DNA of 64,000 nt from Candidatus Omnitrophota bacterium. Its GTDB lineage: Bacteria > Omnitrophota > Gorgyraeia > Velamenicoccales > Velamenicoccaceae. This document shows positions 1 through 61,306 of this stretch, piece after piece; the stretch's first letter is position 1; each line of letters starts with the position of its first letter. The notes beneath the pieces are model-generated. The model saw only the letters and a program-made list of their open reading frames with translations. It was not told where the DNA came from and ran no database searches. The translations under genes and the position numbers were made by a program. Location: NCBI GenBank assembly GCA_016235185.1, contig JACRLT010000023.1:1-64000 (forward strand), in the 5' to 3' direction.

Positions 1-13
1 AAGCCCCAGGTAA

Positions 14-48
14 ACGATACAACCTATAACCTATCTACTCTCCAGACC
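14..48. repeat. degenerate heptamer array 1
   Basis: Five consecutive 7-base units resembling AACCTAT, two of them identical (21-27 and 28-34). It is the first of a set of at least thirteen arrays with the same period but different words. The flanking 1-13 and 49-111 hold no reading frame I can support. Confidence 0.5.
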
Positions 49-111
49 ATTCGAGCTACTATATCGATAATCCAGAGAATTCACCAACTCATTTGACTTT
101 TATCGTATCAT

Positions 112-207
112 CTCCTTCATTTTGCTAATAGCAGGTTTCTTGCCCTACAAAATGAACTCCGCAGCCTATCCGCCAATGAATCAATGGCGGATGTCTAGGC
201 AAGGAGT
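112..207 (-). promoter_or_regulatory. double-hairpin leader element, copy A (orphan)
   Basis: Read on the minus strand, this begins with CTCCTTGCC. It forms hairpin 1 (GACTCC with GGAGTT, GCCTA with TAGGC, ATCCGCCA with TGGCGGAT) and hairpin 2 (TTCATTTTG with CAAAATGAA), and ends in AAGGAG. The hairpin 2 arms differ from those of the other copies at a paired position (TTGATTTTG/CAAAATCAA elsewhere), which is a compensatory change. The AAGGAG is followed only by very short frames ending in stops, so no gene is evident downstream inside the window. The copy is either an orphan or precedes a decayed gene. Confidence 0.55.
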
Positions 208-17721: not shown

Positions 17722-17820
17722 ACTCCTTGATTTTGTCTTTTTCGGTTATCCTTACAAAATCAACTCCGTAGCTTGCGTAGTAAATTTTGTTAGAAATTTA
17801 CAAGCGTTCAAGCAAGGAGT
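17722..17820 (-). promoter_or_regulatory. double-hairpin leader element, copy B
   Basis: Minus-strand leader of the radical SAM gene. Hairpin 1 pairs ACTCC with GGAGT, GCTTG with CAAGC and GTAAATT with AATTTAC; hairpin 2 pairs TTGATTTTGT with ACAAAATCAA. The element ends in AAGGAGT, the Shine-Dalgarno sequence of the TTG start at 17716. The inner stem differs completely from the GTCCGCCA/TGGCGGAC stem of copies C and D but stays paired. Confidence 0.65.
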
Positions 17821-25183: not shown

Positions 25184-25677
25184 TAAAACTTTTCCCTGTG
25201 TATGATCTCTTTAACAGGGCGCTTGATAGGATGCGGCGCCTCATCCGGAATCCCTAGCGCGATAAGGCTTACAAGTTTATAGCCTGATGGCACATTTAGA
25301 AAACCGCGCACCACCTCTGCATAATCTTTTTTATCCCCGGCGATCCAACAGGAGCCTATGCCTCTTCCCGTTGCGGCCAAAAGGCCTGAAGTTGTAGCAG
25401 CACAGCCATCTTCAAGATAATATTTGGTGTCCTTGCAAAAAACAGCAAGACAGGCTGCTGCGCCTTTGATAAGTGCGCCGTTGGGCATAGTTAAACCAGC
25501 CAAAGTTTTTAAAGACTCCTTGTCCTTAACAATAACAAACTCCCACGGCTGTATATTTCTTGCAGTGGGAGCTAAAGAGGCGGCTCTAACGATATATTCC
25601 AGGTCTTCTTCGCTTATAGGGCGGTCTTTAAATTTCCGGATGCTCCTTCGTTTAACAAATGCCTTCTGGAGATCCAT
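25183..25677 (-). CDS. nitroreductase-family flavoprotein
   Basis: A 164-residue nitroreductase: RRSIRKFKDRPISEEDL at the start, ASLAPTARNIQPWEFVIV for FMN binding, and a GIGSCWIAG segment with the C-terminal ALGIPDEAP loop. Short members of this family reduce flavins, nitro groups or quinone-like substrates with NAD(P)H. It shares one base with the ParA-CBM48 gene stop. Physiological substrate unknown. Confidence 0.9.
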   Translation of the reverse strand: MDLQKAFVKRRSIRKFKDRPISEEDLEYIVRAASLAPTARNIQPWEFVIVKDKESLKTLAGLTMPNGALIKGAAACLAVFCKDTKYYLEDGCAATTSGLLAATGRGIGSCWIAGDKKDYAEVVRGFLNVPSGYKLVSLIALGIPDEAPHPIKRPVKEIIHREKF

Positions 25678-26753
25678 TAGTCTTTAACGAGCAAAAGTGA
25701 ATCAAGCTCGCCGAAAGGATTAATTTCGGCTGCGGGATTGGCAGGGTCTTTTTGCCACTTGCCATCAATGACAAAACGGTATTTGTAGGAACCCGGCTTT
25801 AAATTCAGGCGTTTTTTCCATATACCGTCGACGTTATCGAGCCTTGCGTCATCGCCAGGGGTCCAGTTATTAAAGTCCCCCACTACAAAAACGCTGGCAG
25901 CACTACCTGCAGAGAATTCGAAGGTTACGGGAGAAATTTCTTTTGCCTTCTTTTGCACGATCTTTTTCATCTGTTGGGAGATCTTTTCGACTATGGCCTC
26001 TTCCTTGGAGATTATTTCACGCGATAGGCTGAAATAATCCTTGGAGCCGCGGCTATACTTATCGAATGTAAAGATCGTTTGGGCCACGGACTGCGCTTCT
26101 TTAATCTTAACGTTAATATGGACAATTGTGTTAAAGACTTTAGCGCCGAACGTCTCTTTGATCTTGTTCAGTATCCTGAAAGAGTGGCGCAGGCGTGAAT
26201 CAAAATTATTTACAAGGACTCGAAAATCAGCCGAATGGTTAAGACGCTCACGCACAAGGCCTACGATCTCAACTAAGCGCTTGACCCCGTCTACGGAGAA
26301 TCTCGAGGCCTCAACGGGAATGATAAGACTGTTTGCGCTCCTTATGGCATTGACAGTCAAAAGCCCTAAGTTTGGAGGGCAATCGATCAGGCAGAAATCA
26401 TACCCATCGGCTATATCTTTTACGCAATCAAAAAGCCTTGATTCACGCCCTATCTCTCCGGATAACTCCTGGTCAAGCGTAGAAAGCATGATATTTGACG
26501 GTGCCAGGTCAAAATTGGGCGCGATATTTACGATAATATCTTTGAGCGCGCATTTATGATTGCTTATCTTAGATAAGCAATCATAAATGCTTATTTCTTT
26601 ATCTACTCCTAAGCCTAATGAGGCATGGGCTTGAGGATCAAGGTCGATCAAAAGTGTTTTTTTGCCGTTAATCGCCAATGCCGCAGCCAGATTAGTGGCT
26701 GTCGTGGTCTTGCCGCACCCGCCCTTTTGATTGGCTATCGCAAAAATTTCCAT
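25677..26753 (-). CDS. ParA/MinD-family ATPase fused to a CBM48/AMPK-type glycogen-binding domain
   Basis: A 358-residue protein. Residues ~1-240 are a ParA ATPase with the deviant Walker A KGGCGKTTTATN, LLIDLDPQAH and CLIDCPPNLG. After a ~25-residue linker, residues ~270-350 form an early-set CBM48 domain (VFVVGDFNNWTPG, LKPGSYKYRFVIDGKW). ParA proteins position cargo on the nucleoid or membrane and CBM48 binds alpha-glucans, so the fusion could position glycogen or a glycan-bound enzyme. No ParB gene is adjacent. Three start codons compete (GTG 26759, ATG 26756, ATG 26753); the last is five bases from AAGGAGG. Confidence 0.92.
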   Translation of the reverse strand: MEIFAIANQKGGCGKTTTATNLAAALAINGKKTLLIDLDPQAHASLGLGVDKEISIYDCLSKISNHKCALKDIIVNIAPNFDLAPSNIMLSTLDQELSGEIGRESRLFDCVKDIADGYDFCLIDCPPNLGLLTVNAIRSANSLIIPVEASRFSVDGVKRLVEIVGLVRERLNHSADFRVLVNNFDSRLRHSFRILNKIKETFGAKVFNTIVHINVKIKEAQSVAQTIFTFDKYSRGSKDYFSLSREIISKEEAIVEKISQQMKKIVQKKAKEISPVTFEFSAGSAASVFVVGDFNNWTPGDDARLDNVDGIWKKRLNLKPGSYKYRFVIDGKWQKDPANPAAEINPFGELDSLLLVKD

Positions 26754-26757
26754 CATC

Positions 26758-26856
26758 ACCTCCTTGATTTTGATAATCCTATATATTGATTCCTTGCAAA
26801 ATCAACTCCGAAGTCTGTCCGCCATTGATTCATTGGCGGACGTTTAGACAAGGAGG
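26758..26856 (-). promoter_or_regulatory. double-hairpin leader element, copy C
   Basis: Minus-strand leader of the ParA-CBM48 gene. Hairpin 1 contains GTCCGCCA/TGGCGGAC; hairpin 2 pairs TTGATTTTG with CAAAATCAA. The final AAGGAGG is the Shine-Dalgarno sequence of the gene, and the 5' CCTCCTTG is complementary to it. Confidence 0.68.
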
Positions 26857-61201: not shown

Positions 61202-61306
61202 CCCCCTTAATTTTGTATTTAATAGATATTTTCCTTACAAAATTAACTCCGAAGCCTGCGAAGTCCGCCATTGAGTCAGTGGCGGACAAGCGCATAGGCA
61301 AGGAGT
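61202..61306 (-). promoter_or_regulatory. double-hairpin leader element, copy D
   Basis: Minus-strand leader of the LysM lipoprotein gene. Hairpin 1 combines ACTCC/GGAGT, GCCT/AGGC and GTCCGCCA/TGGCGGAC; hairpin 2 pairs TTAATTTTGTA perfectly with TACAAAATTAA. It ends in AAGGGGG, the gene's Shine-Dalgarno sequence. The AspRS gene stop is 25 bases beyond the 5' end. Confidence 0.68.

Follow-up and report, generated by a model that had tools for sequence, protein, structure and literature searches.

A two-hairpin repeat at gene starts of Omnitrophota, probably mobile

Four copies of a repeat in one window

The stretch of DNA considered here, a window of 64,000 nucleotides (contig JACRLT010000023.1, positions 1-64,000) from the 1.79-Mb genome of a Candidatus Omnitrophota bacterium (GCA_016235185.1), carries four copies of a repeat of roughly 100 bases (Table 1). 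A reading made from the sequence only had placed them at 112-207, 17722-17820, 26758-26856 and 61202-61306, all on the minus strand, and a covariance model run on the window returns exactly these four (E < 1e-16). As that reading had it, a Shine-Dalgarno sequence (SD) and then a gene follow directly 3' of three copies; the fourth, at 112-207, meets an IS-like repeat at the contig end. The pattern CTCCTTGN{4,30}TCCGCC matches the window three times against 0.02 expected from shuffles, and every copy folds far better than dinucleotide shuffles (z from -3.5 to -4.4). An Rfam scan of the window gave nothing beyond one tRNA, and the element has no Rfam family. Copy 1 is 99% identical to a copy at C38:71424 that has unrelated flanks. 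The 111-base sequence after it (window 1-111, minus strand) is also found, 100% identical, at the ends of contigs C46, C34, C28, C9 and C6, in each of its six occurrences directly 3' of a different copy of the element; it is probably a collapsed insertion sequence, for which the element is either an insertion site or its own leader.

Table 1. Element copies in the window and features associated with copy 3.
Feature	Position	Strand	Remarks
Element copy 1	117..207	-	runs into the 111-base repeat, of which the genome has six copies
Element copy 2 (apex GTAAATTT)	17728..17820	-	followed by AGGAG and the TTG start (17716) of a B12-binding/radical-SAM gene
Element copy 3	26765..26856	-	two adjoining hairpins, CCTCC...GGAG and TGATTTTG...CAAAATCA
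Hairpin 1 of copy 3	26806..26856	-	basal CTCC/GGAG, TT/TTC internal loop, AAAC bulge, interchangeable apex TCCGCC..GGCGGA
Hairpin 2 of copy 3	26765..26804	-	TGATTTTG (26804-26797) pairs with CAAAATCA (26772-26765)
AGGAG, SD of the gene downstream of copy 3	26760..26764	-	
Gene served by copy 3	25677..26753	-	ParA/MinD-type ATPase fused to a glycogen-binding AMPK1_CBM/CBM48 domain
Element copy 4	61208..61306	-	followed by AGGGGG and the ATG (61196) of a LysM-domain protein

The element, about 90-130 bp long, is made of a hairpin (TTG)ACTCC...GGAGT and of an adjoining hairpin TRAYTTTG...CAAARTYA. The consensus of hairpin 1 is ACTCC-TT-GYYT-AAnC-(variable palindrome)-ARRC-TTC-GGAGT, that of hairpin 2 TRAYTTTG-(about 22 nt)-CAAARTYA. 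Internal loops (TT/TTC and the AAAC bulge) are kept while the stems vary: the apex of hairpin 1 is swapped between copies (TCCGCC..GGCGGA, CCCCACCGTTTTG.., GTAAATTT.., others), and in genome G006 hairpin 2 is often exchanged for a CCGCC..GGCGG palindrome. G006 also displays tandem arrays of two to three elements (L271, L272, L273, L280) joined by AAGGAATAAGCGTTG linkers of 14-15 bases, where the last unit alone abuts a gene. The exact 5' boundaries of the copies vary, and together with this linker they suggest that the mobile unit may be slightly longer. A separate subfamily in genome G001 (L179, L205, L209, L193) has CCTAGCC..GGCACGG in place of CCTTGYC..GRCTTCGG, which suggests that the repeat and its recognition factor changed together. 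A leader peptide, or a conserved upstream reading frame starting from TTG, was considered and rejected, its distance to the hairpin-2 stop varying modulo 3 (37/26/16).

The two hairpins had been recognized from the four window copies, together with a compensatory change in hairpin 2; over 132 copies this observation extends to both-sided changes at 24 of the 24 pairs, with 97.1% of stem cells paired against 80.1% in shuffles. The basal stem of hairpin 1 appears as CTCC/GGAG, TCCC/GGGA or CCCC/GGGG, the SD meanwhile staying AGGAG. Among 3114 pairs, G-U pairs (36) do not outnumber A-C mismatches (46), in an alignment that was fitted to the model, a bias that should favour G-U over A-C and not the reverse. 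Selection for an mRNA fold should tolerate G-U above A-C; the conserved folding thus does not look specific to RNA, and the constraint looks symmetrical on both DNA strands, as expected of a DNA palindrome and not of an RNA switch. The antisense strand of the element folds as well as the sense strand.

Distribution and placement at gene starts

With a covariance model built from 19 copies, about 93 copies are found in the 1.79-Mb genome. Five weak matches were left out, and the 87 readable copies correspond to 86 loci, one being counted twice at contig ends. Other genomes of the same family have 60, 54, 46, 50 (77 by a broader model) and 13 copies, with none in the incomplete genome G002; G001, which belongs to the same genus, has 7 only. 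The rest of the class has 17, 8, 5 or few copies, mostly none. A pattern scan of GTDB r220 yielded 45 matches, 44 of them in Omnitrophota; the single one outside, in Filomicrobium, is absent from the covariance-model results and is taken as chance. One copy belongs to a viral contig, where it stands exactly 5' of the SD of a major head protein gene, adjoined by portal and scaffolding genes. In the open-access literature we found neither an account of such a repeat in Omnitrophota nor a described family with such placement.

The copies are precisely placed. Fifty-four of the 87 (type A) end exactly 5' of an SD, all of these SDs beginning with AG and 44 reading AGGAG; in 51 of the 54, a distance of 8-16 nt separates the hairpin foot from the start codon. 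In 19 others (type B) the start codon itself stands exactly at the hairpin foot, and two copies abut the exact 5' end of a tRNA, as happens, again to the base, with tRNA-Ser in G021 and tRNA-Tyr in G006. For six, one and the same repeated sequence follows at a contig end, and six fall outside these classes, among them the copy before hflX, with ATG inside an arm of hairpin 2, and a duplicate contig end. Every gene-associated copy lies on the strand of its gene, and the expectation that copies found elsewhere would also be located at gene starts is borne out. A copy of G006 (262416-262523, minus strand; L283:417-524), one of the few oriented against the replichore, abuts an apparent tRNA 3' end on the other strand.

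No common pathway was seen among the served genes. By annotation they comprise murA and the genes for malate dehydrogenase, EF-G, ribosomal proteins L6 and S14 and thioredoxin; others we take, by sequence likeness, to be smc, gyrA, secD, hflX and ilvC. The SMC-like and GyrA-like proteins downstream of G000:C12:45583 and G000:C50:48095 contain, as judged by eye, apparent inteins (GKCLRYDSLV.., GECFVKGTRV..). Some genes are served in several genera, such as thioredoxin (G000, G001, G006) and tRNA-Tyr (G000, G006), and at least 6 of the 39 genes served in G006, thioredoxin included, are also served in G000, above the roughly 5% expected. Ancestral shared insertions, hot spots or some benefit to the host could account for this.

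Empty sites and the competing readings

In G001, the starts of orthologs of 41 served genes can be compared, and the element is absent from 39; the two exceptions are thioredoxin, whose copy belongs to another subfamily, and murA, which keeps a remnant. At those type A sites whose flanks align, the SD and spacer after the copy are native (C39:15984, AGGAGGTAACTAAGC; C38:40463; rpsN, AGAAAGGATA; rplF, AGGTGCTC). At type B sites the element meets the gene at the ATG, and a decayed native SD region is left upstream of the element: at C26:5014, TATAGGAGACAGTACA directly before ATG compares with TATAGGTTAAGGAATG followed by the element and then ATG (see also C50:48095 and C9:2411). The 3' AAGGAG, initially counted as a part of the element, is therefore the native SD of the host gene. 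Orthologous sites without the element indicate this, as do those copies that have an ATG or a tRNA as their 3' neighbour; by analogy, the AGGAG that follows copy 3 would also be the host's. The flanks of copies 97-99% identical to one another are unrelated, divergence starting at (TTG)ACTCC and at CAAAATYA, and no target-site duplication was seen at these copies. Empty sites in relatives and near-identical copies in unrelated surroundings, both marks of a mobile repeat, were found.

We therefore favour, with a probability of roughly 0.7, a non-autonomous mobile palindromic repeat of Omnitrophota (REP/MITE-like), with two hairpins, inserting at translation-initiation sites. Pointing to it are the number of copies and their precise placement, the restriction to certain lineages with empty sites in a same-genus genome, nearly identical copies in unrelated surroundings, stem pairs that all covary with no preference for G-U, and the phage copy. 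Against it, none of the 30 Y1 transposase loci compared links a mobilizer to the element, the base-exact placement fits no known target rule, and the sharing of served genes across genera above chance expectation could mean function or hot spots. The further idea that insertion is aimed at translation-initiation regions (SD or start codon, and tRNA 5' ends), a working ribosome site being left or rebuilt each time, is tentative and falls somewhat short of an even bet. Selection for working translation might account for the base-exact placement in type B, with more difficulty in type A, and would not account for the copies at tRNAs.

The sequence-only reading had mainly proposed a switch, riboswitch or thermosensor, in which the 5' CTCCTTG would alternate between hairpin 1 and the SD, and this is not supported; its second option, a mobile repeat providing ribosome sites to unrelated genes, is supported. 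To be sure, CTCCTT is complementary to AAGGAG, and when the two predicted folds are compared, pairing of the SD with the 5' end is predicted to dominate in 11 of the 66 SD-abutting copies only, that at 26758 (0.83) among them. However, covariation ties the 5' bases to hairpin 1 and not to the SD: in the 25 variant sequences where these bases differ from CTCC, hairpin 1 (at least 4 of 5) holds in 24 and a four-base pairing with the SD is possible in 4, so that the supposed complementarity to the SD is not kept. No exclusive pairing covarying with the SD was found; furthermore, the 5' ACTCCTTG is also kept in type B copies, which end without a 3' SD, and the SD is a property of the host. Covariation and empty sites led us to reject the switch, leaving it a very small probability. 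Even less credible would be integron attC-like recombination sites marking captured genes. These share with the element a single-strand-like fold, a variable apex and a position directly before genes, and GCYTAAAC superficially resembles RYYYAAC, but the copies are scattered before housekeeping genes (rplF, rpsN, murA) in ordinary operons, not in cassette arrays.

Two other explanations deserve more weight. The hairpins might be a cis-regulatory leader binding a global translational regulator protein, with a regulon of unrelated genes and duplication of useful copies. The constant location where translation starts, in the orientation of the mRNA, the conservation of internal loops against varying stems, a lineage-specific loop variant common to the full-length G001 copies and the genes served in several genera would all suit such a leader. 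Against it stand the 39 of 41 starts compared in G001 that have lost the element or never had it, the unrelatedness of the served genes, the copies 5' of tRNAs and the lack of G-U preference, and we consider it unlikely. Alternatively, this might be a true REP/RAYT system, a REPIN-like composite mobilized by a Y1 tyrosine transposase of the host, which we consider unlikely while keeping it in view. High-copy intergenic palindromes with lineage-specific subfamilies are indeed present, their hairpins are of the kind recognized in single-stranded DNA, no target duplication was seen, and Y1 genes (IS200/RAYT-type) occur in most genomes and are widespread in the class. Yet their presence does not match element copy number, and the fragmented genome G007 has copies but no Y1 match. 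Among 30 Y1 loci, a set holding only part of the genome's own Y1 genes, none has the element at its borders, the nearest case being a copy some 800 bases from one locus, nor was a parental autonomous element sharing its ends seen beside them. For these loci, a Y1 transposase acting as adjacent mobilizer was rejected. Placement at SD or ATG is not a known feature of REPs. As to a tag of the GTAG/GGAG type 5' of the hairpin, the left flank shows a weak (A)TTG, and GGAG sits inside hairpin 1; apart from this (A)TTG and weak A-richness, no fixed target motif was found upstream.

Under the preferred reading of a mobile repeat, the element would spread through the genome and land, on the strand of the gene, directly 5' of an SD, an ATG or a tRNA. 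It may move as a single-stranded DNA hairpin recognized by an enzyme acting in trans, by analogy with IS200/IS605 and REP, and the conserved internal loops (TT/TTC, AAAC bulge, and the variant common to the full-length G001 copies) are likely contacts of that enzyme. In type A, the host SD would remain intact and exposed at the foot of hairpin 2, and translation would continue. In type B, the SD would be separated from the ATG, the old one decaying about 100 nt upstream, and the (A/G)GG that closes the hairpin-2 loop on its 3' side, 8 nt upstream of the ATG, probably becomes the new SD. The presence of GG at this position in 15 of the 19 type B copies against 23 of 52 of type A (Fisher p = 0.009, post-hoc) suggests such a replacement. 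As another candidate, the GGAG of hairpin 1 bridged over hairpin 2, is not specially kept in type B (12 of 19 against 39 of 52), it was discarded.

Significance and comparison with known repeats

Mobile repeats of bacteria are usually tolerated between genes only. If insertion is indeed aimed at translation-initiation regions, a selfish repeat could invade essential operons, such as those of ribosomal protein genes, without harm; landing to the base at the SDs and start codons of essential genes would be a new way to share a compact genome, and a natural source of new 5' untranslated regions. This raises the question of what recognizes a gene start at the DNA level. A caution follows for annotation: a 5' leader with strong covariation is not necessarily a riboswitch, and comparing G-U with A-C and looking for empty sites help to distinguish the two.

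Correia and NEMIS are MITE-like short non-autonomous hairpin repeats, located near genes and transcribed into mRNAs, and neither they nor BOX/RUP are known to be fixed to the base at an SD or ATG. The BOX/RUP elements of pneumococcus resemble the Omnitrophota element in that they are short and non-autonomous, form hairpins, lie near genes and are transcribed into mRNAs (PMC3049150). In the Omnitrophota element, unlike BOX/RUP, Correia and NEMIS, no target duplication was seen. IS200/IS605 elements produce none either. Their ends are similar in having two imperfect subterminal hairpins and single-stranded intermediates (PMC6006769); by contrast, the Omnitrophota element has no internal transposase, and no fixed target tetranucleotide was found upstream of it. 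REP/REPIN and their RAYT (TnpA-REP) are the nearest kind of element found in the literature: high-copy, non-coding, palindromic and intergenic, with lineage-specific subfamilies and features compatible with mobility as single-stranded DNA (PMC3116915, PMC2817692, PMC3733652, PMC8266576). They differ in that the Omnitrophota element, of about 100 bp, has two non-equivalent hairpins, is co-directional with its gene, is exactly placed at the SD, ATG or tRNA 5' end, and had no linked RAYT at the 30 Y1 loci. The nearest positional analogue found is that of the TAACTGA repeats of marine Beggiatoaceae, present in many copies on the same strand, mostly a few nucleotides upstream of the start codons of unrelated genes, where they occupy the SD region (PMC4679880). 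These, however, are short tandem heptamers, whereas the Omnitrophota element is a structured unit of 100 bp with 24 covarying pairs and demonstrated empty sites.
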